Position numbers and translations under genes: made by a program. The notes under the pieces are model-generated. The model ran no database searches. It was not told the DNA's origin and worked only from the letters and a program-made list of their open reading frames with translations. Source: a virus. Taken from it: a DNA stretch of 38,394 nucleotides. Below are positions 10,976-37,968 of the stretch, piece by piece (within the stretch, counting starts at the first letter, position 1; every line of letters starts with the position of its first letter). Where the stretch lies: positions 1 to 38,394 of the IMG/VR virus record IMGVR_UViG_3300042923_000166; one strand, 5' to 3'.

Positions 10976-10992
10976 TATGTATCACTCCTTTT

Positions 10993-12575: not shown

Positions 12576-12628
12576 AAACATTCCTCCTTGTGGTATAATC
12601 TACGTAAGTTTATTTTCTTACCGTTCTG

Positions 12629-20799: not shown

Positions 20800-22629
20800 T
20801 TAGTAATTTCCTCCAAGACGCGATTGAATAAATACGCGTAGTATTAAATCAGCCTCTATCCTAGCCAATCCATTAGGTAATATTTCAACCTCATGTCTAC
20901 CTCTTGTAATCTTTCCGCTGCTCTCTTTATTCATATAGTTGACTAGATTTATTCTGTCACCTGTTGTGGAGTCGTGTGATATTAAATTTCCATCCACTTT
21001 AATCGCTACGCTAGATGGCGTTGTTTCAAGTTCATAAATACCATGTTTAATCCCATGTTCATGATTTGGCAACGTTACTTCGTGACTATGATCAGGTGTA
21101 TTAAATGAATGACTATGCGCTGGAATGTTTACACTATGTGTATGAGCCGGTATATCAATGGTGTGAGTATGTTCATATGAAGCCCCTGAGATAGAAAAAG
21201 TATGAAAGTGTCCACCACCAGTGTATTCAACTGCGCCACTTGTCCCACCGGACACAGAATCTATGAAACCGGTTGGTGCTATAACGGTACTATTCCCACC
21301 AGAACTTGATGTTTGAGCACTGCCACCACCACTATCTGTTGACTTACTTGTACCTCCACCACTACTGGTAGAACTCACAGTTGCCCCTCCACCATCAGTA
21401 GCTTGACTGTATGCCCTAAAAGCCTTCGTCCTAAAAGTCAATTCGCAAGTGTTTACGTTAACTACATCATCATCAATATAAAATGGGACAATCGCTGGAA
21501 TCACACTATCACAATTATCTTGGTAGGTGAAGTTGATTATATTAGTTGCCCCTTGGGAATAGGCGTCATTAACTTGTTGCTTTCTCTCGATATCAGTCTG
21601 TGTAGTGGCCATGTCGTTAAGTTTATTATTTATGTCATAACTTACATCGTATTCTTTCGACAAATCTGTAATGTTCTCGCCAATAATTCTCCCATAATAA
21701 TTTTCATCATCAACTATAATTCTAGTTACACCATTCAAAATTTTTCTTTCCTGAGCAAATTCAGGCAATATTGAAAGGTCTGTGGAGTCCAAAGGAAAAC
21801 TTACTTTAGGTTCTTTCCATTGTTCAAGCAAAGCTTGCGCATTATCCTTTAAAGTTTGTGCATCCTCAAAACGTGAGTCAATCCATATATAAGACCGTTT
21901 ACCCCACTTTACAATTGACGCATCATCCTTAAGATAATTAAGTCCACCATTTACACTTTCAATTGTTACTTGATTAACTCCCTCGCCTGAACCTTTTGGA
22001 ATTAGATAATTAACTATGTCGGTAGGGTCTGATACTTCGCTAAAATCTATCATATCCTTTCCCCATCTAATTTCAGCCTTTACAACGTCACTAGCTTGGA
22101 TTAGATTTAATGTCCAAGGATAATTTTCTGTATCGAATGTAAACTCGTATGGCTCGCTAAAAGGCTTAGGGATTGATAGGATAGGTGCTAAGAGTCCATT
22201 CTCATTCTCGAAAGAGTAACTAAAGTACCTTGTAAAATCTATTTGACCTAATACCCACCTCTCAGTTTCTTGTAGGCTTAAAATGTATTCTAAGGCTTGT
22301 CTTGTAGTATAGTTTGTGTATTGGTGGTAGCCATTCATTACATCATCGAGCAATGTTGCTAATACGTGTTCGCAAGTATATGTGATACTTTCATTTGTAT
22401 CGTTTATTCGAGTTTCCGTAGGCATTATCCTATACAGTCCGTAATATCGCTCACTCTCTCCGTATATAGCTACATAATTCATGTGTGAGCAAAGTTCGTT
22501 CTTTGGGTCTTTTTTGAGTAAAGAAAAAGAGGATTGCCAGATTGAATTGACTGTCCTCTTTATTGATATGTTGTATGCACTTTCTAGGATACCTAGTTCT
22601 TTTTGATTTTTATCTTTTACGATTAGTAT
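20800..22629 (-). CDS. Tail-tip protein Tal / antireceptor with HxH repeats, probable AUA start
   Basis: About 609 residues. The first about 350 match the minor-structural/endopeptidase-tail family (LIVKDKNQKELGILESAYN, then CEHVLATLLDDVMNGYH, then WTLNLIQASD). A Gly/Ser linker follows, then five 9-residue His-x-His repeats (HTHTIDIPA and variants; 21053-21211 includes an extra HFH), like the iron-binding needle tip of T4 gp37. It sits at the tail tip and probably contacts the cell. The open frame reaches 22632 but has no ATG/GTG/TTG before 22482; the AUA at 22629 is nine bases after GGAGG and gives the family N-terminus. A start at ATG 22482 would delete 49 conserved residues. Confidence 0.85.
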   Translation of the reverse strand: MLIVKDKNQKELGILESAYNISIKRTVNSIWQSSFSLLKKDPKNELCSHMNYVAIYGESERYYGLYRIMPTETRINDTNESITYTCEHVLATLLDDVMNGYHQYTNYTTRQALEYILSLQETERWVLGQIDFTRYFSYSFENENGLLAPILSIPKPFSEPYEFTFDTENYPWTLNLIQASDVVKAEIRWGKDMIDFSEVSDPTDIVNYLIPKGSGEGVNQVTIESVNGGLNYLKDDASIVKWGKRSYIWIDSRFEDAQTLKDNAQALLEQWKEPKVSFPLDSTDLSILPEFAQERKILNGVTRIIVDDENYYGRIIGENITDLSKEYDVSYDINNKLNDMATTQTDIERKQQVNDAYSQGATNIINFTYQDNCDSVIPAIVPFYIDDDVVNVNTCELTFRTKAFRAYSQATDGGGATVSSTSSGGGTSKSTDSGGGSAQTSSSGGNSTVIAPTGFIDSVSGGTSGAVEYTGGGHFHTFSISGASYEHTHTIDIPAHTHSVNIPAHSHSFNTPDHSHEVTLPNHEHGIKHGIYELETTPSSVAIKVDGNLISHDSTTGDRINLVNYMNKESSGKITRGRHEVEILPNGLARIEADLILRVFIQSRLGGNY

Positions 22630-22658
22630 AAGTCAAGACCTCCTTTCTGCATTAAAAA

Positions 22659-22678
22659 GAGACCTCTTTTGAGATCTC
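22659..22678 (-). terminator. Terminator between SGNH protein and Tal
   Basis: GAGATCTC/GAGGTCTC 8-bp stem (one G-U pair), AAAA loop, followed by TTTTT on the minus strand (A run at 22654-22658). Tal and lysis genes are downstream, so it probably attenuates. Confidence 0.75.
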
Positions 22679-22708
22679 AAGTACCGCACACTTTATTCCT
22701 AATATGTC

Positions 22709-24814
22709 TTAACTCCAATATCCTAAATCTTTGCCAAACTCATAAACTTGTTTAGCTACAATATCATATCCAGCAGTATTAAGATGTACTGCGTCACTTC
22801 TCAAGCTTATAGGGATTTCACCATTAGCTATGTCTGTTGTATCTTGTGTAGTTGGAGTAATCCCTGCATCAGCAAGTCCATAATTAAGTAAATATTGTCT
22901 TATATCCAAGAAACGATTACCGTACTTTTTACGAAATAATACGTTGATATCTGCCACGTTTGACATATAGGTTTTAGCTGTCATTCCAATCACAATGTAT
23001 TGTCTATGATTAATGGATTCAATCATTGCATCAATGTTATTAAATGTATCGGTTACTCCATTTACAGTGATTCCATCGTTCGTGCCTGCCCAAATAACAT
23101 GAATATCATCTTTATGATTTTTCATTGTTTCTGTGATAAATAATGTTGGTCTAGTATTTGTTACCGCACTTCCTGCCACTGTTCTAGTAAATTTCACTCC
23201 GCTACTATAAGATAATGTTCCTTCAATACCATTAACAAAACAAGGATTAACACCAAACATTAAGCCGTTCAAAGCACTTAAATTGACGGTATCACCATTA
23301 GCGTTTTTTAATACTATAGACACTACCGATGTATCAGCAGGAATTGTGCATGGTTGAACATATAAAGGCATACCACCTTGTCTATAAGCCACACTTAAAC
23401 TTCCGTCACCACCTACTCCAAAACGATTTACTATTCTATCAACAAGTAGCGTTCCCAACACATATGGATATGGGTAGGGACTTCCTGTTCCTTGGGTTAA
23501 ACTGTCACCATTACAAGACACATCTTTAGTTGTCATACCTGTAGCTTCAGCAACCGCTTCAGCAATTATATCTTCTTTTGTGCTACCACCTAATTTTTTA
23601 CTATCATATGAATTTAAAGTTTTTAATAGTGCTTTATCCCTGCAACTAATAATATGTGCTTGATTATTTACATCATCAAACTTAAAATTAAAAAAGTAAG
23701 AAGATTTTGCAATAAACGAAATGAATTGTTGCTCAAGAATTACATCAACAATTGTTCCATCACTCGTAAATTTAACCGCTGCACCACCTGCGATATCATT
23801 AAATGCTAAGTTTGATATATATTCTGAAATTGCATAATACTCAGTATTAGGTTGAACATTTATATTACAATCAACTACCTGGGTAACACTTGTAGTATAC
23901 AACGCATTCGTTATTTTTAAATTTCCAGTGTAATCTCCTGTTTTAAACTTAGTTATGTATACTATTTTATCTCCAACAGCACAATTAAAAACACTTCCTT
24001 TGACACTATTGTATACATAACCAATACCGTTAGCATCTGTTGTAATCTTAATACCTAGTGCATCTAATACCCTTGTTCCATTTAATGCTGCCCACCATGT
24101 TAACGAGTTTAAATGCAAATTACCTTCACACTTGTTTAAAAACGCCTCACTTTTGGAATTATAGCTATCTACATTAAAAGATGATACTGCACTATCAGGA
24201 AGTACTGTCCCTCCGTATTGTACATTCGTGTTAGTCCAAGCACCATCAATCCAATCATATATATACCCCGTCGTTGTTCCGACTACATATATATTTCCAT
24301 CGTCTGTAGGATGAGCAGCTTGCAATAAAGCCAAAGTGGTATAAGCACCATTTGGACGTCCACTCAAAGATGTTTGTATTAAATTAGAGTTAATTGCAAT
24401 CGCATTAGAATTTACTTCAAGTTGTAGCGTAGTTTCTGCCAATTGCGCAGCAGTCTCAGTTTCTTTTTTATCTAATCTAGCTTTTAATGTAGTATTTACA
24501 GTACCGTCTTGTTCAACTCTAGCTTGAGCGGCTTCAACGGAGGAGTCACCATTTATAACAATTGTATTTAACTGAGTTTGAGTATTTTCTGATTGTTCTA
24601 GCGCTTCGCTAGATATTACTATTACTTCATTGGTTACTCTTACTGCTTCGGCAACCGCTTCATCTACAGATGCAAGTACCGTGCCTGCTATATCTTCAAC
24701 CGTATCACTTGCAATAGTAGATTTAGTTAATGCTTCTTCTGATTGTAAAATTGCGACGTTTAGTTTTTCTCTGCCATCATTAAGACTGTCGCCTACCTCT
24801 ATTAGTTCTGCCAT
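22709..24814 (-). CDS. Receptor-binding tail protein with SGNH hydrolase domain
   Basis: 701 residues. N-terminal coiled coil and attachment module (VEVGDSLNDGREKLN and GDSSVEAAQARVEQDGTVN, shared with the next gene upstream), middle beta-rich section, and a C-terminal SGNH/GDSL hydrolase: GDSLTQGTG (block I, Ser nucleophile), WAGTND (block III) and SDAVHL (block V, Asp and His). Such tail esterases remove acetyl groups from surface sugars during adsorption. GGAGG precedes the ATG by seven bases. Confidence 0.8.
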   Translation of the reverse strand: MAELIEVGDSLNDGREKLNVAILQSEEALTKSTIASDTVEDIAGTVLASVDEAVAEAVRVTNEVIVISSEALEQSENTQTQLNTIVINGDSSVEAAQARVEQDGTVNTTLKARLDKKETETAAQLAETTLQLEVNSNAIAINSNLIQTSLSGRPNGAYTTLALLQAAHPTDDGNIYVVGTTTGYIYDWIDGAWTNTNVQYGGTVLPDSAVSSFNVDSYNSKSEAFLNKCEGNLHLNSLTWWAALNGTRVLDALGIKITTDANGIGYVYNSVKGSVFNCAVGDKIVYITKFKTGDYTGNLKITNALYTTSVTQVVDCNINVQPNTEYYAISEYISNLAFNDIAGGAAVKFTSDGTIVDVILEQQFISFIAKSSYFFNFKFDDVNNQAHIISCRDKALLKTLNSYDSKKLGGSTKEDIIAEAVAEATGMTTKDVSCNGDSLTQGTGSPYPYPYVLGTLLVDRIVNRFGVGGDGSLSVAYRQGGMPLYVQPCTIPADTSVVSIVLKNANGDTVNLSALNGLMFGVNPCFVNGIEGTLSYSSGVKFTRTVAGSAVTNTRPTLFITETMKNHKDDIHVIWAGTNDGITVNGVTDTFNNIDAMIESINHRQYIVIGMTAKTYMSNVADINVLFRKKYGNRFLDIRQYLLNYGLADAGITPTTQDTTDIANGEIPISLRSDAVHLNTAGYDIVAKQVYEFGKDLGYWS

Positions 24815-24826
24815 TTCATCGCCTCC

Positions 24827-26299
24827 TTAAGCCTGTATAACTCCATCTTTTATAAAGTGTTTTACGCTACTGCCATTTAAACTGTATGTATCAACGTGAT
24901 TTCCGTAACACTCGTAATATGATGCGTCACTATATACGTACAACCTACTAGCTATATTTTTGTCGCAAGTAAACTTTTCCACCCATGACATATAAATTTC
25001 TTCATTTGTGCAACAACCTGGAAATACAGTATTGCCACTACATTGAAATTGCTTTGTCCTATTAAAAAGTATGCCATGTTTGATAGTGTTAGCAGGTGCT
25101 TTTATTGTGTTGTCTTTTATTTTTACATTTACTCTGCCGGCATTCGAAGCGTCCGAAACAAATATACCGACCGAATCAGGAAGAACAGAACTAAAGAATG
25201 ATATATGATTATCTTTTACCTCGATAGGATGCGGGTCAAAATTAGGGGTAACGATTTGAATACCGTAGCAAACCTGTGCGCCATCCATAGCAATCCAAGT
25301 ATCTGTAAGAATGTACCCTCCACTAGCTGAGTTAATAAATGCACCAATTTTTTTGCAGTAATCCAAATCCATTGCATCGTATACACCAAATAAACAATCA
25401 TCTTGATATATTCCGTAATCATGGCCGACGAACCCACAGGCTCTAGTTTTTACAGATTCAGGATTTTGGTACACTCCATTGTGGCTACTGCCACCTACGT
25501 ATAATCCGCATTTCTTACCTCCGTTAATAGTCGTTGTAACACTAGTTGCTACATCTAGATTTGATGTAATAGCGTTAAGTGTAGCTTGTACGATTTGACC
25601 TACCAGCATTACAGCATTCATGGCACCTGTTAGCCCCACGTGACTAATGTCAAGCCTAAACATATCATAAAATAAAAATCCGGCACCAAAACGACCTTCT
25701 CCACCAATTTCTATGTGGTGAATATTATAACCTAGTGCTCTATTAGTAAGATGTTGTTCAGACGTAAAAGCACAGAAATTGTCACAATTAACTCTTGATG
25801 ATAGAACTCTGAATGAATGTATCTCAGTTATTTTTCTGCCAGTAGATACCGATAATTTAAAACCATCACAACCATCTATATCAAATATTGTATTTTGACC
25901 AGAACCCACAAAATCAAGCGATCCTAGAATAACTGTATTGGCAATTCGATACCGTCCATCTGGTACAATTACTTTAACTCCTAGATTAATAATAGCTTGA
26001 AATATTTCCGAATCGTCAGCTATATTATCGGCCGCTGGTGGCATTAATGGTATTGGAGGGAACATAACGTTTATGCCCCTACCTTTAATATCAAGAGTGT
26101 TCTTGTTTAATTCAGTATCTTTTTTATTTAATCTAGCTTGTAGTGTTGCGTTAACGGTTCCATCTGCTTCAACCCTAGCTTGAGCGGCTTCGACAGAACT
26201 GTCACCATCAATTACAGTTTGATTAAATTCTTCCATGAATGCGTTTATCTTTTGTCTTCCTTGGTTAAGTTTGTCGCTTGAATTTATTATACTTGCCAC
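24827..26299 (-). CDS. Receptor-binding tail protein, pectate-lyase-like beta-helix
   Basis: 490 residues. N-terminal module SSDKLNQGRQKINAF plus GDSSVEAAQARVEADGTVN, shared with the SGNH protein, then a parallel beta-helix region beginning IPLMPPAADNIADDSEIFQA and IVPDGRYRIA, a typical start of pectate-lyase-3-like tail spikes. It likely binds or cuts a surface polysaccharide. GTG start 26299, seven bases after GGAGG. It lies directly after Dit, where Tal is usually found. Confidence 0.75.
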   Translation of the reverse strand: MASIINSSDKLNQGRQKINAFMEEFNQTVIDGDSSVEAAQARVEADGTVNATLQARLNKKDTELNKNTLDIKGRGINVMFPPIPLMPPAADNIADDSEIFQAIINLGVKVIVPDGRYRIANTVILGSLDFVGSGQNTIFDIDGCDGFKLSVSTGRKITEIHSFRVLSSRVNCDNFCAFTSEQHLTNRALGYNIHHIEIGGEGRFGAGFLFYDMFRLDISHVGLTGAMNAVMLVGQIVQATLNAITSNLDVATSVTTTINGGKKCGLYVGGSSHNGVYQNPESVKTRACGFVGHDYGIYQDDCLFGVYDAMDLDYCKKIGAFINSASGGYILTDTWIAMDGAQVCYGIQIVTPNFDPHPIEVKDNHISFFSSVLPDSVGIFVSDASNAGRVNVKIKDNTIKAPANTIKHGILFNRTKQFQCSGNTVFPGCCTNEEIYMSWVEKFTCDKNIASRLYVYSDASYYECYGNHVDTYSLNGSSVKHFIKDGVIQA

Positions 26300-26310
26300 A
26301 TCACCACCTC

Positions 26311-27171
26311 CTATAGGTATTTGTCTCTGTATTTAATTCGTATATCAATATCAATACCACTTCCTGATATTCCAACTTTCCCAGCACCTTTTAACAACAT
26401 AAATTCTCTCAAACCTATTTCAAAAGTGTTGACTCCGTTTTTCAACACTGTGTAATTTTCACAATCTATATCCCAAATAGAATTACTGAAAGTAGGGAAG
26501 TTAAGCGTTTTTCCATTTGCTGATATCACTAAATTTGTTGCACTTCCGCTTATTTCAATAATTGGTTTAACTACTAACCCATCTACATATACATCTAGTT
26601 CGGTCTGGCCTGTAACATTTATTGCTCCTACAGCATCGGTATATCCCATTTCATAATCACCATCGAATGTTAATTCATCACTACCCCACAACACAACATT
26701 TCTTGACATCGAATGTCCTAAAAGGTAATATGATCGAAAAGTTAAAACCTCACTGCCCCACATAACTTCATCCGCAAATATATTAGATTGAGCATAAGGA
26801 TCGTAACCCACAAACCTTAAATCAAATTTTCCAGTTCGGAGTACCCTATCAGGGTCTATCTGAGATATAACTTTAACTGTATAAAACTTGTCTGATTCAT
26901 AATTATAGATCAATTTAATGTCTCTTGGTTTTCCAAAATCATCAAATAAAAACGAAATGAAAGTTCTTAGTTTATGCTGAAGATCAATTTTGTCTATTCC
27001 TTTTGTGCTTATTTCAAATTCAAAAGGTTTCTCTTTAATTTCTGCCCCAAAATTTACAACTCCAACTCCGGGAATATCTTGTGTTTTGTGAGTGTATTCA
27101 GGAGTCAATGGGTTTTTTTGCTTTTCACAATGTAGTCCAAAGTATTTTAATGTATATCCATCTAGCGTTAT
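26311..27171 (-). CDS. Distal tail protein (Dit), probable AUA start
   Basis: 286 residues if started at AUA 27171. The N-terminus TLDGYTLKYFGLHCEKQ and NPLTPEYTHKTQDIPG is the Dit/Sipho_tail hallmark, followed by the tail-tube-like fold and a C-terminal galectin-like domain (about 150-286). It forms the hub between tube and tip. The frame has no ATG/GTG/TTG before a TTG at 27108, which lacks a ribosome site and would remove 21 conserved residues. GGGGGTGG lies seven bases before the AUA, which overlaps the tape-measure stop as ATAA. Confidence 0.85.
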   Translation of the reverse strand: MTLDGYTLKYFGLHCEKQKNPLTPEYTHKTQDIPGVGVVNFGAEIKEKPFEFEISTKGIDKIDLQHKLRTFISFLFDDFGKPRDIKLIYNYESDKFYTVKVISQIDPDRVLRTGKFDLRFVGYDPYAQSNIFADEVMWGSEVLTFRSYYLLGHSMSRNVVLWGSDELTFDGDYEMGYTDAVGAINVTGQTELDVYVDGLVVKPIIEISGSATNLVISANGKTLNFPTFSNSIWDIDCENYTVLKNGVNTFEIGLREFMLLKGAGKVGISGSGIDIDIRIKYRDKYL

Positions 27172-30100
27172 CGTACTACCACCCCCATCTGCCTTGCTCC
27201 TGATTTATTTAATGAATTTAACGCTATACTCATATCTCCTGATGTGGCAGTTGCAAATTCTCTACCATTTATACTTAATGTAATAGGTCTATTGGCTAGC
27301 GAAGTTATTGCACTTACTAAACTGCCTAGATCAAGTCCACCAGTGCTAGAAGATCCATTTATTGATGTATTTACACTTGCATTTATAGGGTCTAGGCTTA
27401 TTTCTTTATTAAGTACTCCCATTGCTCTATTAACATCGGCTGCACTATTCTCGATCCCTATTGCAAGTCCAGCACCTAACATCATTCCAACTTCATCCCT
27501 AAAAACTCTAGATGGAGATTTAATGCCATACTTATCTTTAACCCACTTCATCGCACCACTAACAATTCCGCCTAATGCACCCGACACATTGAAACCATTG
27601 TTCGCTATTCCGAGTGAAATTCCATCTACTAAAGCCTTGCCTATTGAGGTAGTCCCTGTGGATTTCTTTTCACCAGCAGTTTTTGCATCACCAACTACTG
27701 TACCCATTGCGTTTGATGCTTGATAACCATTCACTGATATTCCACTACCTAAATTAGTAGCTGTTGCCATACCGGTTTTTAGTCCTATCCCTGCTAAAGG
27801 TTGAAGCTTGCCATCTACACCAATCTTCATATTATCGGCTGCTCCTGTAACTCCCGGAGTACCTTGTTGTAATTTTTCCAACATTCCAAAAGCCATGCCA
27901 CCGGCTGCTGCTATGCCATTTTCGCTCATTTGTCCAGTTTCGGTCGTTACCCCATCTTTAGTTAATCCAGCTTGCTCTATTGCTACAGCTGTGGCTTGTG
28001 CGGTTTTCTCTAGCCATAGTCGGTTATACTCTGTAAGTTGTTCGCCAGTCATTCCATTTAAGGCTGCGATTTCGGTATATGCTTCGGGTCCCATGTCTCT
28101 TAACTCTTGCAATAGTCCTTCGTCTATGCCTTTTTTCGCTAATTCGGTAATATTAGTAGCCCACTCTGCAACCCCAGTTACTTGAGATCTAAGATTCTCC
28201 ATTAATGTTTCACTTGATACATCGGTGCTTTTCGAAAACTCGTCAAATAATCCTGTTGAGTTATATATACTATCACTCATTGATTGTACTGCTTCGGCGG
28301 TTTCAGCTGACATTGTGTTCACTGACTCAGTTACTTGACCGGATGCACTCTCAGCCGAACTTCCTAATTCGCCATATTGTGCACCATTGGCATTTAATTT
28401 ATCTGTGTTATCGCCTACATATTTTGAGGTTGAGTCAAATTCAGCGCCTAGACCTTTCATTGTGCCTTTGGTTTTCGCTATCTGTTCGTCTAGCGATTCC
28501 ATCTGATCGTTATAATCTTTTCGCTGACTAGAACTTAAATGGAAATTCTTCTCGCTTAATGCGTTTAGTTTATCTTGGATTTCTCCTTTCCGTTCCATTT
28601 GCTCGCTTAGATTTATTTCTGCTTTTGCCATATCCTCAGTTATACCAATAAGCTTTTCTTGAGATACTTTAACTTTGTAATATTCTAAATTGGCTCTCGT
28701 TACTTTTTCAATTTCACCATGATTTTTATTTAAGTGTCCAGTTTCCTTGTCTATTTGTAGATTTAACTCAGGCATTAATTCGTTTAATTGCCCTACGATA
28801 GACACCATCTGAGCCTTTTCAGAGTTAGATTTATTGGTCTTGTCTGCCAACTTGTATAATTCATCAGTAAGAATAGATATGGAACCGTACTCTGATTCAA
28901 CCGCTTTTGTAGAGTCTTTTCTAGCTTGAACATTATCTTTAATTGTTCCGGTCAATGCTTTAGATTTTTCATTTAACGCATCAGTTGCACTTGATGATTT
29001 ATCTGCATTAAGTGCATATATTGCCAATCCTCCGACTGCGAGTCCAACCGCTGCCGCCACTAACCCCATAGGACTAGCTAACTGTACAACATTTAATGCT
29101 GCGGTTGCTCCGGCCGCTATTGTTGTTTCTGCTGCATAAGCTGCCATTGCTGCTTGGGTTAATTCAATGCCGGCAACTATTACACCCCCTGCTTTAAACA
29201 CCGCAAGTCCAGTAGCTATGCCAACAATACCACCTATTACTAAATCAGAGTTATCAATAACCCACTCAAGACCATCAACCAAAACCGGCAACGTTCCTTC
29301 ACTAAAATCTTTAACTCCATCCGATACTTTCTGCATGGCTCTATTTAAAGATGGTGCAACCGCAGTCGCAATATCAGACATTGCTTCACGCATATCATAT
29401 TGGGCATCAGCATTAGCAATTAATTCTTTATTATTTTCTCTATATTGCTTATTAACATCAGCAAGTCCAGTAGATGCAAGTACATCTAAAATATATGCTT
29501 GCTTTTCTGCTTCGCCATTACAAGCTGCTAACCCTTTGTCAAAGTCAGCTAAGTTATATCCTAACCTCTCAAGCATTTCTCCAAATGTTCCAACTGCTTT
29601 CCCTGTGGCAAGTGTTTCTTGTAGTCCGTCGGATAAACCTTCTATCTTCATCGTGTCGGGAAATTTTATTACTGCACCAGATAAGGCTTCTACTGCTTTT
29701 GTAAGCCCTTCACCTTTAAATCCGGCAGCCATTAAGTTTGATAAACCTTCTATATTTGCATCTGTCTCGCCTGTTATTGCATCAAGTTTTTTGAGTTCTC
29801 CTGATACTCCATCGATTCCAGTTCCAACATCTCTAGCATTCTGTTCGAGTTTAGAGAAATCTTGCCTAAATTCTTTGGTACTTTCTGTGACTCCATATAG
29901 TGCAGCACCCAAGCCAACAACCGCACCCACCGCTACTTTGCCAAAGCTAGATAGTCCACCCTTTACAGTATCCAACTCTTTGCTAAGGTCTTTCGTTTCC
30001 TTTTTGGCATCGTCTAACTCATCACTAAAAGATTTTGTTTCAACCGTACTTTGCTTGACTTGTCTACCATATTGGTCAATTGATGTTGCGACTCCATCTG

Positions 30101-30482
30101 TAGATTGCTTAGCTTCTTCTAAATATTTGTCATTCGTTTGGAGTTCTCTATCGAGTTTTACAAGTTCGGTTTCCGCTTTATTTAAAGACGCTTGCCACTC
30201 TTTAGTCTTGTTGTCGTTCTCTCCGTATTGTTGTTCTGAGTTAGCCAACGCTTTTCTAAGTGCTTCAACTTTATCTTTTTGTGTGTCAAATTCTTTGCTT
30301 AATACATCACTTCTTTTAGTTAACGCTTGCATGGAGTTTGCGTTATCACCAAATTCAGCTGACACTAGACCCACTTCACTTTTTAGTACTTTTAGATCTT
30401 TGTTTATATTCGTTATGCTTTGTCTAAATTCTTTTTCTCCATCTAATGCTATTCCTGCGCCTATCGTTCCTTTTTTAGTTAT
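27168..30482 (-). CDS. Tape measure protein, probable AUA start
   Basis: About 1104 residues: long coiled coils (10-190), hydrophobic membrane-active segments (about 195-210 and 400-475), more coiled coil, and a Gly-rich C-terminal region (KYGIKSPSRVF). It sets tail length; at about 0.15 nm per residue the tail would be roughly 165 nm. A GTG at 30491 overlaps the GGAGG site; the AUA at 30482 is eight bases after it and matches the spacing in the portal gene. It then starts MTKKGTIGAGIALDGEKEF, as expected for the family. Confidence 0.9.
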   Translation of the reverse strand: MTKKGTIGAGIALDGEKEFRQSITNINKDLKVLKSEVGLVSAEFGDNANSMQALTKRSDVLSKEFDTQKDKVEALRKALANSEQQYGENDNKTKEWQASLNKAETELVKLDRELQTNDKYLEEAKQSTDGVATSIDQYGRQVKQSTVETKSFSDELDDAKKETKDLSKELDTVKGGLSSFGKVAVGAVVGLGAALYGVTESTKEFRQDFSKLEQNARDVGTGIDGVSGELKKLDAITGETDANIEGLSNLMAAGFKGEGLTKAVEALSGAVIKFPDTMKIEGLSDGLQETLATGKAVGTFGEMLERLGYNLADFDKGLAACNGEAEKQAYILDVLASTGLADVNKQYRENNKELIANADAQYDMREAMSDIATAVAPSLNRAMQKVSDGVKDFSEGTLPVLVDGLEWVIDNSDLVIGGIVGIATGLAVFKAGGVIVAGIELTQAAMAAYAAETTIAAGATAALNVVQLASPMGLVAAAVGLAVGGLAIYALNADKSSSATDALNEKSKALTGTIKDNVQARKDSTKAVESEYGSISILTDELYKLADKTNKSNSEKAQMVSIVGQLNELMPELNLQIDKETGHLNKNHGEIEKVTRANLEYYKVKVSQEKLIGITEDMAKAEINLSEQMERKGEIQDKLNALSEKNFHLSSSQRKDYNDQMESLDEQIAKTKGTMKGLGAEFDSTSKYVGDNTDKLNANGAQYGELGSSAESASGQVTESVNTMSAETAEAVQSMSDSIYNSTGLFDEFSKSTDVSSETLMENLRSQVTGVAEWATNITELAKKGIDEGLLQELRDMGPEAYTEIAALNGMTGEQLTEYNRLWLEKTAQATAVAIEQAGLTKDGVTTETGQMSENGIAAAGGMAFGMLEKLQQGTPGVTGAADNMKIGVDGKLQPLAGIGLKTGMATATNLGSGISVNGYQASNAMGTVVGDAKTAGEKKSTGTTSIGKALVDGISLGIANNGFNVSGALGGIVSGAMKWVKDKYGIKSPSRVFRDEVGMMLGAGLAIGIENSAADVNRAMGVLNKEISLDPINASVNTSINGSSSTGGLDLGSLVSAITSLANRPITLSINGREFATATSGDMSIALNSLNKSGARQMGVVVR

Positions 30483-30494
30483 TGTTCTCACCTC

Positions 30495-30710
30495 CTAGAA
30501 AGAGACAATATTTTCTCTTGGTTTTCCTTCGATTATTAAATCCGAATAACCTAGCTTATTTCTTTTTAAACTTTCTTCTAAGTCGAAATTATCTTTGTAT
30601 TGTCTAAATAATGTAATTATTTTACCTATTGTCATTTCCCAAACTTCTTCTTCTTTATATCCTAATAACATTTTGCCTACATAAATCAAGCGAGCAACAT
30701 TTACTTTTTC
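30495..30710 (-). CDS. Tail chaperone T region, made by -1 frameshift (gpGT)
   Basis: An open frame with no ribosome site of its own, beginning inside the end of the gpG gene. It encodes about 70 residues (VNVARLIYVGKMLLGYKEEE and so on, ending at TAG 30495) typical of the C-terminal part of gpGT chaperones. A slippery GAAAAAG (30704-30710) just before the gpG stop would fuse it to gpG. The fusion product helps assemble the tail tube around the tape measure. A TTG at 30689 is possible but unlikely as a start. Confidence 0.7.
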   Translation of the reverse strand, partial: EKVNVARLIYVGKMLLGYKEEEVWEMTIGKIITLFRQYKDNFDLEESLKRNKLGYSDLIIEGKPRENIVSF

Positions 30711-31108
30711 GTTTGCTCGCTCATTTCGTTTGGGGAAGTATCGTCACTCTTTGGCATCGTACCGTTAAACGACAACAACATTAAAGCTGATATTAGTTTA
30801 GATGTTGAATTGCTTAGAATTTCAGTTCTTATATATTCCTCAGACAAATCTTCCCATCTATCATCTGGATTATATTTGTTGTGCAATCTTACATCTTCAT
30901 TCAACACCACCGTAAGCATGTGAGCCAACATTGCATATGCTTTCTTTTTCTTTTCTTTATCTTCTAATTCAAATATTTCATTTATAATGCTGACAATGTC
31001 ATTGTCATAATCCTCTTGTAGTTGATCTATAACATTCACATTAAACAGTAAATGTCTTTCTTTACCGTCAAATTCTAATACTTCTCCAACTGGTTTTAAT
31101 ATTCTCAT
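30701..31108 (-). CDS. Tail assembly chaperone gpG-like
   Basis: 135 residues, mainly helical and acidic (FELEDKEKKKKAYAMLAHML). Its place between major tail protein and tape measure, with a -1 frameshift extension, identifies the gpG/gpGT pair. It begins at ATG 31108 after GGAGG. The last codons ACG AAA AAG TAA hold the slippery site. Confidence 0.75.
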   Translation of the reverse strand: MRILKPVGEVLEFDGKERHLLFNVNVIDQLQEDYDNDIVSIINEIFELEDKEKKKKAYAMLAHMLTVVLNEDVRLHNKYNPDDRWEDLSEEYIRTEILSNSTSKLISALMLLSFNGTMPKSDDTSPNEMSEQTKK

Positions 31109-31129
31109 TGTTGCCTCCTAAAAAAATAA

Positions 31130-31146
31130 GGCGGAGGTTATCCGCC
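31130..31146 (-). terminator. Internal terminator after major tail protein
   Basis: GGCGGA/TCCGCC 6-bp stem, 5-base loop, followed on the minus strand by TTATTTTTTT. Located between the major tail protein and the chaperones, it would let most transcripts stop after the abundant tail protein. Confidence 0.85.
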
Positions 31147-31151
31147 AGTTA

Positions 31152-31745
31152 TTATGCTACAAATAAAGATTCGAGATATTCTATTGCCACTGCTAGAGTG
31201 TCAAAGTCTACTTCTTCCATCCAGTTTCCGTTTGGTAGCTCATAAATCGTTCCATTAAGCTGAGAGTAAACGTAAGTAGTTGCACCTTCTTTTGTTCTTA
31301 CGGTCTCCATTGTTGGTGAAAACTCGATTTTGTAAAAGAATCTTACTGTGTAGACGTTTTTATTCTCAGTTACGTTCAGATCATTAATTATGTACCCGAA
31401 TCCTTGCGCCACTGGAATGTCGTTGGTATTTGAGATATGTTTTGACACCGGGGTTGCAACCGCGCCTTCTCCAGTTGGCGTAAACGTTGATTCTTCAACC
31501 GTTCTGCCATACAGTGGTGACAATAGTGCTTTATCCGCATAATCTACTGTCAGCGATAATGTTCCATCCGAAAATGCCACATCTTTATGTTTCAATACAT
31601 TGTCCGAGTAGATAGTTGCGGAACTGTAATTGATTGACGGTGCTGCTTCAATTGCTCCGCTAAGTTTAGCTGATGCTCCATATGTAGTTAATTCCTCGCT
31701 AGTTAGTGGTGCGTGTAAAAAAGTACTTAATCCTTTAATTGCCAT
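31152..31745 (-). CDS. Major tail (tube) protein
   Basis: 197 residues, beta-rich, with the phi13-type layout (MAIKGLSTFLHAPL, then DGTLSLTVDYADKALLSPLYG and ending in a YLESLF helix). It polymerises into the tail tube. GGAGG lies eight bases before the ATG. A terminator directly after the gene fits high expression. Confidence 0.85.
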   Translation of the reverse strand: MAIKGLSTFLHAPLTSEELTTYGASAKLSGAIEAAPSINYSSATIYSDNVLKHKDVAFSDGTLSLTVDYADKALLSPLYGRTVEESTFTPTGEGAVATPVSKHISNTNDIPVAQGFGYIINDLNVTENKNVYTVRFFYKIEFSPTMETVRTKEGATTYVYSQLNGTIYELPNGNWMEEVDFDTLAVAIEYLESLFVA

Positions 31746-31748
31746 TTT

Positions 31749-32096
31749 CTATTCCTCCGTTTCTGATTTTCCTTCGATTTCACATTCAAAGACAATGTGA
31801 TTTGTATTTGTTTCATCCTCGTATAAAGTAGTAATTTGAGGATAAGCAAAACCCGCCTTAAACAACTTCGAGCGGATCTGTTTTTTTAGTGTATGAAAAT
31901 TGAATGTTACTGGACAAAATAGGTGAATTTGCATGTAGGCAATGTCAATTATTGGCTCATTGTCTGCAAATATTACACCTCTGTCGTCTACGTAGTTGAA
32001 AACTATGTAGGTTGGATTAGTTCCAGTGTATTTGCTTGGGACTACTGGATAACCTAGAGGTGTTAGGGTGGTTATTATTAAGCTATTTACATTCAT
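31749..32096 (-). CDS. Tail completion protein
   Basis: 115 residues; beta-alpha pattern with PTYIVFNYVDDRG and HLFCPVTFNFHTLKKQIRSK. Position before the major tail protein and fold pattern fit the tail-terminator/completion protein that caps the tube toward the head. GAGGTG precedes the ATG; it overlaps the upstream gene by 4 bases. Confidence 0.65.
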   Translation of the reverse strand: MNVNSLIITTLTPLGYPVVPSKYTGTNPTYIVFNYVDDRGVIFADNEPIIDIAYMQIHLFCPVTFNFHTLKKQIRSKLFKAGFAYPQITTLYEDETNTNHIVFECEIEGKSETEE

Positions 32097-32488
32097 TCGC
32101 CTATCACCTCGTTAAATGTTTCCTGTAGTACATTCATCACTTCACTTTCAGCATTGTTTAAAGTCTTTGCTATGATTGGGGTTGGAGATTGTTGGCTTGT
32201 ACCATACTCCGAGTGAACAAGTTTCTGCATGTTACTCACGCCTTTTCTATCTTTGCCAGTAGGTCGAGCCGATACATACCAACCATGCTGATTCTTTTTA
32301 GCTTTTGTTTTTTTAATTGAATTGGTTAGATCGCTTGTTAATGCGTGCTTTGAGGCTTCGCTTTTCATACTACGCTCTAAAATTGGAATGGCATCATTTA
32401 GCATCTTTGGTGCTATCTCGTCAAAGTTATCTAATCTTTCCAATTGTCTTACAAGTTCCGGGTCAAAATCAAAGTTGAAATTCGCCAT
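32093..32488 (-). CDS. HK97 gp10-like tail/neck component
   Basis: 131 residues; RQLERLDNFDEIAPKMLNDA helix, then KKTKAKKNQHGWYVSARPTG and a C-terminal GTSQQSPTPIIAKTLNNAE. These are typical for the HK97-gp10 family, which joins tail to head. AGGTGG precedes the ATG. Confidence 0.75.
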   Translation of the reverse strand: MANFNFDFDPELVRQLERLDNFDEIAPKMLNDAIPILERSMKSEASKHALTSDLTNSIKKTKAKKNQHGWYVSARPTGKDRKGVSNMQKLVHSEYGTSQQSPTPIIAKTLNNAESEVMNVLQETFNEVIGE

Positions 32489-32498
32489 ACCTCACCAC

Positions 32499-32816
32499 CT
32501 AACTACATGTTAACTCCATTATTTCGTTTTGTTTTACATAGGTTCTAATAATTTCATATATTGCACCTTCGTACTCAACTTTATCTGCATACAAAGCTTT
32601 ATTTCCAACCATGTGTTTAGTTAAGTCAAAGTCAAACGAATGCACCTCAAATCCGATTGTTGGCTTGTACCCAGATTGCAAAGCTGAATAAAACTCTGTT
32701 CTTGCAACTGATTTCACATTCACACATACTTCTGTTTCGGTTTTGGTTTCAATATCGAACCCATCAGCATCTTGTGTTATTGTTGTATAGATTAATTTAG
32801 CAATATCTTTCCACAT
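32499..32816 (-). CDS. Head-tail adaptor (stopper) protein
   Basis: 105 residues, beta-barrel pattern with EVCVNVKSVARTEFYSA and YEIIRTYVKQNEIMELTC, matching the phage head-tail joining family (SPP1 gp16-like stopper). Its leader GAGGTGATCTAA before ATG is identical to the leader of the preceding connector gene, where ATT takes the place of ATG. Confidence 0.75.
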   Translation of the reverse strand: MWKDIAKLIYTTITQDADGFDIETKTETEVCVNVKSVARTEFYSALQSGYKPTIGFEVHSFDFDLTKHMVGNKALYADKVEYEGAIYEIIRTYVKQNEIMELTCS

Positions 32817-33107
32817 TTAGATCACCTCAACTGGTGCAACCGTATATTCTTGAGATAGCGTCAGATGGGTTTTAAGGCTTGTATAAGATGCTATATATTT
32901 TTCACTATCTGCATTGCCTGAACCAAAATTAGCCTTGCTATACAGGATTACTGCCCTCTTTATAAGCGGGTCACTATCCACAACCTTGGCTTCTAGTACG
33001 CCACTTAAAATTAGGTCGGCTTTTGCAGAATCGATTATATCTTGAACATCATCATTGAAATAAGTTGTTGATATTCGTAATGATTTTTTAACATCATCTA
33101 AGATAAT
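32817..33107 (-). CDS. Head-tail connector (HK97 gp6-like), AUU start
   Basis: 96 residues, all-helical: LDDVKKSLRIS, DDVQDIIDSAKADLILSGV, then DPLIKRAVILYSKANFG, a clear gp6/connector-1 pattern that forms the ring under the portal. A stop codon (TAA) lies directly before ATT 33107 in frame, and the first ATG/GTG/TTG afterwards is near residue 43. So translation must begin at ATT or another unusual codon. GAGGTG lies six bases before ATT. Easily missed by standard gene finders. Confidence 0.85.
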   Translation of the reverse strand: MILDDVKKSLRISTTYFNDDVQDIIDSAKADLILSGVLEAKVVDSDPLIKRAVILYSKANFGSGNADSEKYIASYTSLKTHLTLSQEYTVAPVEVI

Positions 33108-33133
33108 TTAGATCACCTCTTTTATTAAGAAAA

Positions 33134-33149
33134 AGGGACAAAAGTCCCT
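33134..33149 (-). terminator. Internal terminator after major capsid protein
   Basis: AGGGAC/GTCCCT stem, 4-base loop, followed on the minus strand by TTTTTC. It follows the capsid gene and should reduce transcription of connector genes relative to capsid. Confidence 0.8.
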
Positions 33150-33154
33150 AAATA

Positions 33155-34366
33155 TTAAGCGTGTTTCTTGGTTATTGTTACAAGTGAATTTTTATCTACA
33201 ACTTTACCATCTACAAGCATGATAGCTTTTGTTACTTCGTCGTCAGTGTCATTATCTTCGTAACGCTTTAAAGTCATATTGTAGTTAGTGTTCAAAATAT
33301 AGTCTTTAAAGTTAAATAAGAAAGCTACAACGGAAGTTGCTACAGGCGCATCAACTAAAGAATCCATGTAATCAACTAAGACAACTGCGCGACCTAGCAG
33401 TGTACGTTCTGGACGACCATTAATGCCATAATTCACTCTTGCGATAGGTTGTTTTTGTGAATCCACCATTCCGATAAACCTCATAAACGTTTTCTTTGTC
33501 ATTACCCAAAGAGCTTCTGTCTCATAAGCCAAAGGTAATGCAGCTTCGGCATCGATTAAAGTTTGATATTCTGGTTTGCCTGCTAGTGTAATATCTACAT
33601 TTTGACCAACAACTACAACCTCAGTTAAAACTCCTTTAGGCTGTCCGACACCTGAACCACTAATAATAGCTTGCTCTATCGCCTTAATCATCGCTTCAGT
33701 AACATTGTTAATTAAAGTTGCTTCAAACACTGGTAATGAAGTTACTCCAGCTTCTAATGAAATCGAAACAGCGCAACGTAATTTATAATAGTTAAAAGTA
33801 ATTACGCCAGTTGTTTTCTTTTGCTTGTCACTTCCTGCACCCTCTACGACCCATGTTGCGACTGGTTTTACAGTAGATGTAGGGATCGACATTCCGCCCT
33901 TGTAAGCTGTACGAGTAACTAAAGGCAAAATCATTCCAGTAGATTCTAGCTTTTCAATAATTTTTTCTAAAACAGTAGTAGGAATAACTGATCCTATATC
34001 AGTTGTTTTTGTATTAGCATCTACATTTAGGAATTTTTCTGGAATTGCAGAACCTTTTAAAACGTTATTCATAAACGCTTTTCTATATTCTACTGATGCA
34101 AACATATCATCGTTTAACACGCTTTCTGTCGAATCAATTACTGTGCCCACAATATCCACCCCTTTATTTTGTATATCTGTGATCTTCGTACTACCTTTCA
34201 GGGCGTTTAAATTAGCATTAGCCAACTTTACTTCTTCCCATTGGTTGTCTAGTGTTTCTACTTCTTTCATTTTTACATTTGATTCCTCAATTTTCCCCTC
34301 AGCTATAAAAGCCTTAGCCTCATCTAGTAAAACGTTTCTTTGTTCTAAGTATTTTTCAAAAGTCAT
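33155..34366 (-). CDS. Major capsid protein (HK97 fold)
   Basis: 403 residues. An N-terminal coiled-coil scaffold-like delta domain (about 1-100: MTFEKYLEQRNVLLDEAKAF), then the HK97 shell domain (SVIPTTVLEKIIEKLESTG, GGMSIPTSTVKPVATWV, GSGVGQPKGVL). The upstream protease removes the delta region during maturation. ATG lies nine bases after GGAGG. Confidence 0.95.
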   Translation of the reverse strand: MTFEKYLEQRNVLLDEAKAFIAEGKIEESNVKMKEVETLDNQWEEVKLANANLNALKGSTKITDIQNKGVDIVGTVIDSTESVLNDDMFASVEYRKAFMNNVLKGSAIPEKFLNVDANTKTTDIGSVIPTTVLEKIIEKLESTGMILPLVTRTAYKGGMSIPTSTVKPVATWVVEGAGSDKQKKTTGVITFNYYKLRCAVSISLEAGVTSLPVFEATLINNVTEAMIKAIEQAIISGSGVGQPKGVLTEVVVVGQNVDITLAGKPEYQTLIDAEAALPLAYETEALWVMTKKTFMRFIGMVDSQKQPIARVNYGINGRPERTLLGRAVVLVDYMDSLVDAPVATSVVAFLFNFKDYILNTNYNMTLKRYEDNDTDDEVTKAIMLVDGKVVDKNSLVTITKKHA

Positions 34367-35055
34367 CTATGTGACCCTCCTTTTAATTTAAGTAGTTTTA
34401 ATTGTGCTTCTGCTTTTTGTTGCATAAAAATATCCGACTCATTTCTTATCGGATTGATTGTATTTCTTATTTTGTTTATTAATTCTTTTGGAAGAATTGA
34501 ATTTCCATAACTAGCAACTAAATCTAATTGATTACTAAACATTATTTCATCAATAAATTTATGGTCTAGTGCTTGTTGTGGGGTGAGCCACGTTTCATGG
34601 TCCATCATAGCTAATAATTCATCTTTACCCATACCACTTTTTATCGTATATGAGTTAGCTATTGTTTCATTTGCGTTTTTAAGGACTTCAGCAGTATGTT
34701 CCATATCTCTGTGATCTCCACTGGCCCTAGTTGACACGTTATGTATCATAAGTTGTGCAGTGGGTGACATCAATACCTTTTTACCTGCCATAGCTATTAC
34801 ACTTGCAGCACTTGCAGCCAAACCGACCACTTTGACTACTACATTGCCTTGATAAGATTTCAAAGCTGTGTAGATTTCAGATCCGGCAAATATATCACCA
34901 CCACCCGAGTTAATCTCAACCTCCAATTCATCGCCATTGGCATCATTAATTTCTTTCATGACTGATTTTGGACTTGTGGACTCAATATCACACCATTCAT
35001 ATATCCATTGATCATCATTTGAGACTATGGCACCTTTAATATTAACTTTCTTCAA
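34363..35055 (-). CDS. ClpP-like prohead protease
   Basis: 230 residues with the ClpP/S14 fold: INSGGGDIFAG (about 49-58), catalytic S82 in GLAASAAS, H105 in MIHN and D152 in MMDHETW. It cleaves the capsid delta domain. Start is TTG 35055, nine bases after GGGGG; it overlaps the portal stop. The acidic/Lys tail past residue 200 is usual. Confidence 0.9.
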   Translation of the reverse strand: MKKVNIKGAIVSNDDQWIYEWCDIESTSPKSVMKEINDANGDELEVEINSGGGDIFAGSEIYTALKSYQGNVVVKVVGLAASAASVIAMAGKKVLMSPTAQLMIHNVSTRASGDHRDMEHTAEVLKNANETIANSYTIKSGMGKDELLAMMDHETWLTPQQALDHKFIDEIMFSNQLDLVASYGNSILPKELINKIRNTINPIRNESDIFMQQKAEAQLKLLKLKGGSHR

Positions 35056-36268
35056 TATTTATCACCCCCTTTAATGCCTTTTTAATCTCATTTAACTTAT
35101 TATTAACCTCAGTTACTACCGCAGTATCTAAACGTCTAACTGGGACATCTCCACCTTGCACTGGTGCCAATCCTCCAAGTATCTTCCTCCACTCGTTCGG
35201 AGTCAATGCGCCCCTATCTACCATTTGTAATAAATTTAACTTAGTAGACATTGAAGCATATTGAAGGTTTGATGCTTCAAATATAATTGAGTTTCCAAAA
35301 CCTCTTTCTCTCCTGGTGAATAGTTTTCTAGTAAATTCACCACTTAATTGCATTGCCAAAGGTTCAATTTCTGACTCATAGTAAGAGTTCCATTCATCTT
35401 CTGAGTATTTAGATTGAACTATCTTCTCATTAGTGCCAAAGAACGAATATATCCTTACAGTAGTTCTGTCCATCTGCGGGGCATTGGGAACATAGTCATT
35501 GGGACTAACTTGTTGTGCATCTACTTTAGCATCAACCGCAGCAGCGCCTACCGACGTACTATCTATATTTAAATAGTTAGTGACGAAATCTTCTGTTTGC
35601 TTTTTCAGATCCTCAGGCCTTAGTGTTTGATTAAATTTAAGTAACCATTTTATGATATTAGAGTTTCTGATTGCTTTAACTATTCCTTGATCTGTTGTAT
35701 TAACTATTTCCATGAGTGGAAGCAAAGCATCTCTGGGACTTTCTCCGAATATATCATTTTCATTGTAATCTTGGCGCAAATGGATAATATCTGTATATGG
35801 ATAAGTAACCATCTTCCCATTTCTCATAGTACACTTCAAAAACAACTCGCCTTGGCTATTATACTTAGCTTCTGCACCCAAACAAGGCACAGGATATAAC
35901 TCATTAGGATAGCCATTGTCATCCCTGTTGATGTATATAAAAGCGTTGTTGTTTAACTGTAACTGAGTAGTGATTTTCTCTTGCATCATCTGTCCTGTCA
36001 TGTATGGGTTGGGTTCTTCTAGTAGAAATCTCATATACACGTCAGGATTTACCTTTAAATCTGTTGATCCATCGGGTTTAAGGGTTTCTCTGATGTGCTT
36101 AGCTACTAATTTGCCTACCGCCTTTGATTTAGGTCTTATACATGCTCTTACAATGTCACTTTTATATAACTTGCCATTCCAGGCGTAATATCCGTTACCA
36201 TTATCGCTAATCATTTCAAATCTAGTCACAGAGGTGCTTTTATTTTTAAACCTATCTAGTATGCCTAT
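35042..36268 (-). CDS. Portal protein, probable AUA start
   Basis: 408 residues of the HK97-type portal family (GILDRFKNK, RACIRPKSKAVGKLV, ITTQLQLNNNAFIYI). It forms the dodecameric ring for DNA entry and binds terminase. A GTG at 36277 is in frame but lies within the GGGAGG ribosome site. The AUA at 36268 lies eight bases after GGAGG, the same geometry as in the tape-measure gene, and gives the usual short N-terminus before LDRF. Confidence 0.9.
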   Translation of the reverse strand: MGILDRFKNKSTSVTRFEMISDNGNGYYAWNGKLYKSDIVRACIRPKSKAVGKLVAKHIRETLKPDGSTDLKVNPDVYMRFLLEEPNPYMTGQMMQEKITTQLQLNNNAFIYINRDDNGYPNELYPVPCLGAEAKYNSQGELFLKCTMRNGKMVTYPYTDIIHLRQDYNENDIFGESPRDALLPLMEIVNTTDQGIVKAIRNSNIIKWLLKFNQTLRPEDLKKQTEDFVTNYLNIDSTSVGAAAVDAKVDAQQVSPNDYVPNAPQMDRTTVRIYSFFGTNEKIVQSKYSEDEWNSYYESEIEPLAMQLSGEFTRKLFTRRERGFGNSIIFEASNLQYASMSTKLNLLQMVDRGALTPNEWRKILGGLAPVQGGDVPVRRLDTAVVTEVNNKLNEIKKALKGVINIEES

Positions 36269-36282
36269 TTTTCTCACCTCCC

Positions 36283-37968
36283 TTAAATAAGATTCATATA
36301 ATCCTCATAGATGCGTTCATATGTGATGTACGCATCTAGTAAACTTGCAACCCCATCTATTCTTCGCTTCGCATTACTGGTTTTGCAAAGTGCATAGTTT
36401 TCATTTCTATCTATTGTTATTGAAGCGTTACTTAAATTCCATTTTAAGATTGGTGAATTGTTATAATTGATTCTTTTAGCTGCTAAATCTGCTTGAAAAC
36501 TTTTCATAGGGCTAGAAAACGTTTTAGCTCCCTGGACAACCGGATCAGTTGAAGTCTTGCCAAAGCTTTGTTGCAACTCATCTATGATGTATTGACTATT
36601 CCAACTATCGTAACCTATTTTGTATATGTATATATCGAGTTCGTTTTGAACTTCAAGGAACCAACTTGTCACATCTTTATAATTAATCTTGTTCCCTTCA
36701 CTAACTCTTAATAACCCTTGTTCTAACCATATATCATAAGGTATTTTATCTTCCTTTGTACGTTGTTCAAGTAAATCTCCTGGTAACCAATACATTTGTT
36801 TAACATATAGGGTTTCATCATCAAGAACTCTGAATATTACAGTTGCACAGGTTAAATCTGTTGTGGTTGAAAGGTCAAGACCGCCGATACCATATCTAGG
36901 CTTTAATTCTTTAATATCAAAAGTCTCTATATTATTAAGGTCTTCGAAAGTGAGCCACGCTTCGCTTGAAGTTTCTCTTATGTTGAACTCTTTGCACACC
37001 AGATTCTTAACTAGCATATTATTTGACTTAGCTTTCTCGACTTTCGTAGCTAAGGTCTTTTCATTTTTAATTGTGCCTAGTCCTGGATTAGCTTTTCTCC
37101 AACATTTAGGATCTGTCCACTCCTTACGATTATCCAACTCATAAATAAAAGCTATAAACCGATCATCTCTATATCCTCCTGGATCAAAGTAACCATTTAT
37201 AACTTGTTCTGCTTCGTTGTATTTTTGATCATATATATCTTCTCTAATGGTCCCGGCTGTAGATGTAATAAATATTAACGGTTGTTCTCTCGCCCCCACA
37301 CCATCCGCCATTATGTCAAATAAGGCTTTCCCATTCTTCCATTGATGTATTTCATCCATAAGCACACCAGAACAGTTTAAACCATCTAATGTGTCAGTGT
37401 CAGATGCAACTGGTTTGAATGAACCATCATTAAAGTTGCTAACCATTTCAGCAACGAGACCTTTTATCCTCTTTTTCAACGTCGGGGATTTCATAACCAT
37501 TCGTTTTGCTTCGGACCATATGATTTTAGCTTGATCTTTTTTTGTTGCTACTGCATATATTTCGGGTCCAGCTTCACTATCTCCAACTTGCAGATACAAG
37601 CCAACGCATGAAGATATAAGTGATTTTCCATTCTTTTTACCAACTATTAGTAGCGATTCTCTATATTTCCTATTACCTTCTATATCAATAAATCCGAATA
37701 TTACAGCCAACATTGCCTTTTCCCACAGTTCTAAAATTACAGGTTTGCCACCCATTTTGCCTTTTGAGTGTCTACAAAAGTTTTCTATAAATTCGATTAT
37801 ATGATTTGCTCTTTGAGGACTATAATAATATTCGCTAGTATTATCTGTGAGATCATAGACCGCTTTTTTATACGTTTTGCATATTTTCTTTGATACTACT
37901 TCTTGACCATTTTCCATCAGGTCCCAATATTCAATTATTGGATTGTATGTTAAAGGGTACTTAATCAT
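36283..37968 (-). CDS. terL: Terminase large subunit
   Basis: 561 residues. ATPase domain with Walker A GKKNGKS (110-116) and Walker B VLMDE (202-206), then an RNase-H-like nuclease domain with D365 in GIGGLDLS and a further acidic region. It packages DNA and cuts at cos. It belongs to the Terminase_1 group typical of cos phages. ATG 37968 overlaps the small-subunit stop by eight bases; no strong ribosome site, so it is probably coupled. Confidence 0.95.
   Translation of the reverse strand: MIKYPLTYNPIIEYWDLMENGQEVVSKKICKTYKKAVYDLTDNTSEYYYSPQRANHIIEFIENFCRHSKGKMGGKPVILELWEKAMLAVIFGFIDIEGNRKYRESLLIVGKKNGKSLISSCVGLYLQVGDSEAGPEIYAVATKKDQAKIIWSEAKRMVMKSPTLKKRIKGLVAEMVSNFNDGSFKPVASDTDTLDGLNCSGVLMDEIHQWKNGKALFDIMADGVGAREQPLIFITSTAGTIREDIYDQKYNEAEQVINGYFDPGGYRDDRFIAFIYELDNRKEWTDPKCWRKANPGLGTIKNEKTLATKVEKAKSNNMLVKNLVCKEFNIRETSSEAWLTFEDLNNIETFDIKELKPRYGIGGLDLSTTTDLTCATVIFRVLDDETLYVKQMYWLPGDLLEQRTKEDKIPYDIWLEQGLLRVSEGNKINYKDVTSWFLEVQNELDIYIYKIGYDSWNSQYIIDELQQSFGKTSTDPVVQGAKTFSSPMKSFQADLAAKRINYNNSPILKWNLSNASITIDRNENYALCKTSNAKRRIDGVASLLDAYITYERIYEDYMNLI

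Follow-up and report, generated by a model that had tools for sequence, protein, structure and literature searches.

The ratios of siphophage virion proteins are set in translation, by the tail chaperone frameshift and by weak GTG/TTG starts, and initiation factor 3 (IF3) discriminates against AUA/AUU-type start codons. We analyzed a 38.4 kb virus record, IMGVR_UViG_3300042923_000166 (taken as a whole and hereafter called the window), in which at least four virion genes, and with Dit probably five, have a non-canonical start, AUA or AUU (ACG or AUA in Dit), behind an exceptionally strong Shine-Dalgarno (SD) sequence. As in the siphophage examples, the ratio of late proteins would be fixed at translation, but the means differ: there a frameshift or conventional weak starts are used, whereas the window has codons that do not belong to the annotated start set.

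The closest described systems are bacterial genes. In Staphylococcus aureus, AUA or AUU starts with an extended SD are found in infC (AUA), ccpN (AUA), cvfC1 (AUU), and citZ (AUA) (Kohl et al., 2026, PMC13009471). With reporters of ccpN, cvfC1, and citZ, expression was about 10% of that of the AUG version, and ccpN reached up to 30% in rich medium; the medium had no effect on the AUU start of cvfC1 (PMC13009471). Like the window genes, these genes of S. aureus and other Bacillota combine AUA or AUU at normal spacing with an extended, very stable SD and no better start, and in ccpN and cvfC1 such starts are conserved across species (PMC13009471). They are scattered cellular genes, whereas here the starts belong to several virion genes of one phage and recur in the tail-tip genes of many phages. 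The AUU starts of Escherichia coli infC and pcnB also limit expression and are IF3-sensitive, but these are single autoregulated or rate-limited host genes and not stoichiometric virion parts (cited in PMC13009471). Streptomyces sigR is similar in that a non-canonical start (GTC, repressed by IF3) adds a level of control, and differs in the codon, in being a host regulator, and in that IF3 control has been demonstrated (PMC5472188).

The open-access literature yielded no phage report of non-canonical starts with an extended SD, nor any on several such genes in one virion module or on recurrence in Tal or hub genes. Such starts are known in bacterial genes; judging from that literature, the multi-gene set in phage virion genes and the recurrence in Tal and hub genes appear to be undescribed. 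The first-pass annotation had stated that no phage was known to have been described with so many, and the open-access literature agrees; however, AUA/AUU/AUC starts recur in Tal and in a hub gene of Clostridioides difficile phages.

Start sites of the window genes

The window represents a temperate siphophage, of Bacillota (Firmicutes) type. It encodes an integrase, a Cro/CI-like regulator, an ORF6C/BRO anti-repressor, a replisome organiser, ThyX, and an endolysin, and a complete head-tail module lies on the minus strand. No near DNA match was present among 50,697 phage records, and no relatives of its own species were found. All frames were translated stop to stop, and every possible start codon was scored for SD duplex energy (kcal/mol) and spacing. 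Spacing at the conventional genes of the window was 5–11, mostly 6–9; conventional starts peak at 6–8. The start sites in question, including that of the tape measure protein (TMP), are as follows.

36266..36268, minus strand: AUA start codon of the portal gene (CDS 35042-36268; SD energy -15.7 kcal/mol, spacing 7)
36273..36284, minus strand: extended SD of the portal gene, AAGGGAGGTGAG
33105..33107, minus strand: AUU start codon of the connector/neck gene (CDS 32817-33107; SD energy -10.1, spacing 7)
33111..33120, minus strand: SD of the connector gene, AGAGGTGATC
30480..30482, minus strand: AUA start codon of the TMP gene (CDS 27168-30482; SD energy -14.5, spacing 7)
30487..30496, minus strand: SD of the TMP gene, AGGAGGTGAG
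27169..27174, minus strand: start region of the Dit gene, which overlaps the TMP stop and consists of ACG 27174-27172 (spacing 6) and then ATA 27171-27169 (spacing 9)
27179..27186, minus strand: SD of the Dit gene, GGGGGTGG (energy -12.9)
22627..22629, minus strand: AUA start codon of the Tal gene (CDS 20800-22629; SD energy -13.1, spacing 9)
22638..22646, minus strand: SD of the Tal gene, AAAGGAGGT
3676..3678, minus strand: probable AUU start of SSB (CDS 3262-3678; SD energy -7.8, spacing 7), a weaker case

In the portal leader (TTTAAGGGAGGTGAGAAAA-ATA-GGC), the only close conventional codon upstream, GTG 36277, lies within the SD, and the next one downstream costs about 18 residues. The TMP leader (TAGGAGGTGAGAACA-ATA) is built in the same way, with its sole upstream conventional codon (GTG 30491) inside the SD and a loss of about 39 residues at the next one downstream. 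The connector leader (AGAGGTGATCTAA-ATT) carries an in-frame TAA immediately 5' of ATT; its frame has no conventional start with an SD, and the next downstream one costs 42 of 96 residues. The Tal frame (AAAGGAGGTCTTGACTT-ATA) is without a usable conventional start, the next downstream one costing about 49 residues. None of these four frames has ATG, GTG, or TTG at a usable SD spacing. PHROG models begin to match at residue 2 in portal, connector (phrog_5223), and Tal and, for the best TMP model, at residue 7; the downstream conventional starts are unusable because these matched residues would be lost. Upstream GTG and TTG codons were rejected as true starts, since they lie within the SDs. The earlier claim that conventional alternatives are absent, sit within the SD, or cost conserved residues was thus borne out for these genes. 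As a separate observation, base pairing is possible between the connector SD and the start region of that gene (GAGGUGAU-CUAA-AUUAUCUU, window 33090-33120), which could lower or regulate initiation further.

In Dit, the leader reads GGGGGTGGTAGT-ACG-ATA, and the PHROG Dit match begins at residue 1. From the sequence, the start is non-canonical whether it is ACG or ATA; AUA is not proven. For SSB, TTG 3687 sits within the SD.

Homologous starts in relatives and in tail-tip genes

Among portal relatives, of 85% identity or less, the same SD precedes TTG, GTG, or ATG at the codon in question; the nearest (85%) use TTG. The TMP of one relative (L177) reads CTAAGGAGGTGAGACA-ATG-GCA-AAG against CTAGGAGGTGAGAACA-ATA-ACT-AAA in the window, a near-identical leader with ATG at the homologous codon. 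In connector relatives (L007, L010, L026), the aligned codon is ATG or GTG. A related-locus scan with Dit gave no relatives, and one with TMP gave a single relative. Since conventional codons stand at the aligned sites of relatives, the window sites are correct and their codons derived in this genome.

The relatives also shift the reading of two genes. Dit relatives such as L083 read GGGGTGGTTTT-ATG-ATA-ACA-CTA-GAT, so the homologous Dit codon in the window is ACG (ATG or GTG in relatives) and the ATA lies one codon later. Aligned SSB relatives have ATG either at the codon of ATT 3678 or one codon upstream, and many start at the earlier position (MINRV), where the window has GTT. The AUU start of SSB is therefore plausible, but not firm. 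The first-pass annotation had assigned AUA to portal, TMP, Dit, and Tal and AUU to connector and SSB, exactly at the family N-termini. Both codon and position stood for portal, TMP, Tal (AUA), and connector (AUU), with SD energies of -10 to -16 and spacings of 7–9, whereas in Dit the AUA is one codon off an ACG and SSB is the weaker case.

Further AUA, AUC, or AUU (AUH) starts were seen in other genomes. In L222 (IMGVR_UViG_3300050123_000024), the aligned first codon of the SSB gene at 3001 is ATC, preceded by a near-perfect SD (GAAGGAGGTGG, -16.7, spacing 7), which gives a further AUH start outside virion genes. A prophage in a Clostridium sp. metagenome-assembled genome (L095) has two AUU candidates (9976-11179 and 14290-14689): in its portal gene ATT follows GGGGGTGA, and in a second ORF (INKRLELRK...) it follows GGGAGGTG.

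We compared Tal across 46 lineages of less than 80% mutual identity. The starts were TTG in 21, ATG in 13, GTG in 2, ATA in 7, ATC in 2, and ATT in 1, and all 10 AUH codons fell exactly on the aligned first residue (offset 0). Among the lineages without a conventional start, an Ile codon occupied the aligned first residue in 10 of 11, against about 8% expected (binomial p ~1e-10). In the isolate YPHTV-1, Tal reads AGAAGGTGATCACA-ATA-ATA-AAA, and the deposited start is a GTG within the SD.

A second tail-tip case is the hub (NlpC/P60-type) gene of six C. difficile phages, which reads GGAGGTGATTT-ATA-ATT-AAC and variants. It is located at 10863-12608 in Clostridioides phage CD2301 (L249) and at 22469-24217 in JD033 (L251), and is present also in L255 and L257. 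ATA is replaced by TAG in CD1801, and ATT by ATC in phiCD08011; the conserved start is therefore AUU/AUC. This start is kept down to 64% protein identity (HGP05). The gene is not annotated in CD2301, and its annotated start is 65–74 codons too late in JD033, phiCD08011, and CD1801. Gene finders allow only ATG, GTG, and TTG (sometimes CTG), and public records therefore lack such virion genes or hold them in truncated form.

Frequency and strength of the starts

With one procedure applied throughout, AUH starts (or ACG/ATA in Dit) were found in 5 of 27 strong-SD genes of the window versus 18 of 651 in relatives (p=0.0014). The window count includes the 96-residue connector, which was added although it is below the 100-residue limit of the run. 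The true rate in relatives is lower, since the 18 include some false calls and four genes from one hub lineage. AUH calls in relatives' terminase, head-tail adaptor, and protease genes, as well as ACG calls in TMP (L040–L096), were judged spurious (weak SD, intragenic, or adjoining ATG). No other genome fetched had more than about two convincing cases. Within the window, non-canonical starts were confined to late genes (5/15 versus 0/26 in the rest, the early genes; Fisher p=0.004). Host-type chromosomes had 1/116 (Robertmurraya, 320 kb) and 0/153 (Clostridium, 400 kb). The sole candidate in these 720 kb is a 441-codon ORF on the minus strand of Robertmurraya korlensis (L267), with ATA behind GGATGGTGG (-12.6, spacing 7).

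Virion copy numbers in other siphophages are 12 for portal and 3 for Tal. Across lineages, ATG was the start of the major capsid gene in 58/60 (97%), of portal in 25/54 (46%), and of Tal in 13/46 (28%). The differences from the major capsid (portal p=7e-11, Tal p=5e-9) were computed on the counts of an initial cross-lineage survey, not on the 46-lineage Tal table. AUH starts were absent from the 60 major capsid lineages, and the major capsid and major tail genes in the late region of the window keep AUG. SD energy was -10.4 for ATG, -11.7 for TTG, -11.8 for GTG, and -12.5 for AUH; the SD was stronger at AUH than at ATG genes (p=0.008), the AUH class being small (n=11).

Three terminator-like hairpins lie among the late genes.

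33134..33149, minus strand: terminator-like hairpin between major capsid and connector
31130..31146, minus strand: terminator-like hairpin after the major tail protein
22659..22678, minus strand: terminator-like hairpin just upstream of Tal

In the Tal family, a hairpin upstream of the gene accompanies weak or AUH starts; it was present in 8/10 AUH lineages versus 1/13 ATG lineages (p=0.0007), an association that may come partly from gene order and shared ancestry. An Rfam search gave no match, and the result of a sigma-70 promoter scan was below chance.

From the relation of start strength to copy number, the deepening of the SD, and the S. aureus reporters, we infer fixed low-efficiency starts that are rescued by extended SD pairing. 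An extended duplex, with about 8–10 bases complementary to the 3' end of 16S rRNA, would fix the initiation site with no alternative start, as sequence and comparison suggest, and would position the near-cognate codon in the P site. Ordinary fMet-tRNA would then initiate with a one-base mismatch at roughly a tenth of the efficiency of AUG, and the reduced initiation would set the output of proteins needed at 3–12 copies per virion. A further cut in expression would come from the three hairpins, which follow the major capsid and major tail genes and precede Tal. We consider it probable that the non-canonical starts of the window act in this way, as a low-efficiency throttle of low-copy proteins. 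The earlier suggestion that they could set protein ratios accordingly gains comparative support, with weak starts in low-copy genes, stronger SDs behind weaker codons, and S. aureus starts at 10–30% of AUG (PMC13009471).

Several points weigh against the throttle. The copy numbers are borrowed from other siphophages. Connector, TMP, and Dit mostly have ATG in relatives, and portal and Tal show the clearest enrichment, so the relation of start strength to copy number is only a tendency. The tail terminator and head-tail adaptor, also low-copy, use ATG in the window; a protein can thus be scarce without having a weak start. Moreover, the Dit codon is ambiguous (ACG or ATA), and SSB, if it starts at AUU, is not a virion protein.

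A wider reading is that phages of Bacillota have a distinct class of AUA/AUU/AUC starts behind extended SDs, invisible to annotation, that serves as a standing throttle on scarce virion parts, with tail-tip hubs foremost, and that in the window it has become a multi-gene programme, perhaps coupled to IF3 and growth state, setting the stoichiometry of portal, connector, TMP, Dit, and Tal. We put this forward only tentatively. Naturally low starts in scarce virion proteins would make it testable how phages set a 3-copy versus 400-copy ratio from one late region. Such sites are also natural test sequences for the SD strength needed to rescue a mismatched start codon on Gram-positive ribosomes.

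Competing explanations

Neutral drift would accept the starts as real and regard them as tolerated losses: with a strong SD and low demand, AUG or UUG could decay to AUA, AUU, or ACG with no selective advantage. Every window site has relatives with ATG, TTG, or GTG at the same codon, which makes the changes derived and gene-specific; the TTG of the nearest portal relatives and the resemblance of the Dit start to a simple ATG-to-ACG change fit as well. However, drift would also hit major capsid or early genes, and no AUH start occurs in the 60 capsid lineages or among 26 strong-SD early genes. Over deep divergence, the C. difficile hub gene has kept AUU/AUC, and weak starts are retained in 72% of Tal lineages. 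We regard drift as rather unlikely.

Alternatively, in line with the link to host state raised in the first-pass annotation, the AUA/AUU starts could be a regulated switch that ties late virion translation to IF3 level or growth state and matches assembly to host physiology. The discrimination of IF3 against such codons and the late-gene bias in the window would suit this, as would the rise of S. aureus ccpN AUA initiation from about 10% to 30% between media (PMC13009471). On the other hand, no phage gene in the window resembles an initiation factor, the AUU of cvfC1 showed no medium effect (PMC13009471), and such control does not extend to the capsid and major tail genes, which lie in the same region. 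A switch seems improbable.

An artefact, either sequence errors at the start codons or true starts at nearby GTG/TTG, is hardly credible, although the phage collection contains nothing close to the virus record and its reads are not open to inspection. Five separate errors limited to the start codons of otherwise intact genes are implausible, the changes differ in type, and the isolate genomes CD2301, JD033, and YPHTV-1 show the same phenomenon; sequence error and hypermutation were therefore rejected. The first-pass annotation had named ATG in relatives together with sequence errors as grounds against its proposal. ATG or TTG is indeed found at the aligned sites, but with independent errors implausible, these codons confirm the sites and do not refute them. 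Against a mis-call stand the position of the GTG/TTG codons within the SDs and the stop directly before the connector AUU.

Altered decoding, with AUA read as Met or initiation globally relaxed in the host, would account for several AUA/AUU starts in one genome but is very unlikely, because internal AUA codons of the window align in relatives with I (48%), V (21%), or L (13%; 82% together) and with M in only 2%, which contradicts an AUA=Met code, and because early genes use only ATG/GTG/TTG and the two host-type chromosomes have at most 1/269.

Two other features of the window were recorded. An ORF at 2911-3174 (88 codons) has a frame that opens with ATT right after a stop and has no SD at proper spacing. 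The tail fibre-like protein at 22709-24814 carries a GDSL lipase/acylhydrolase domain.

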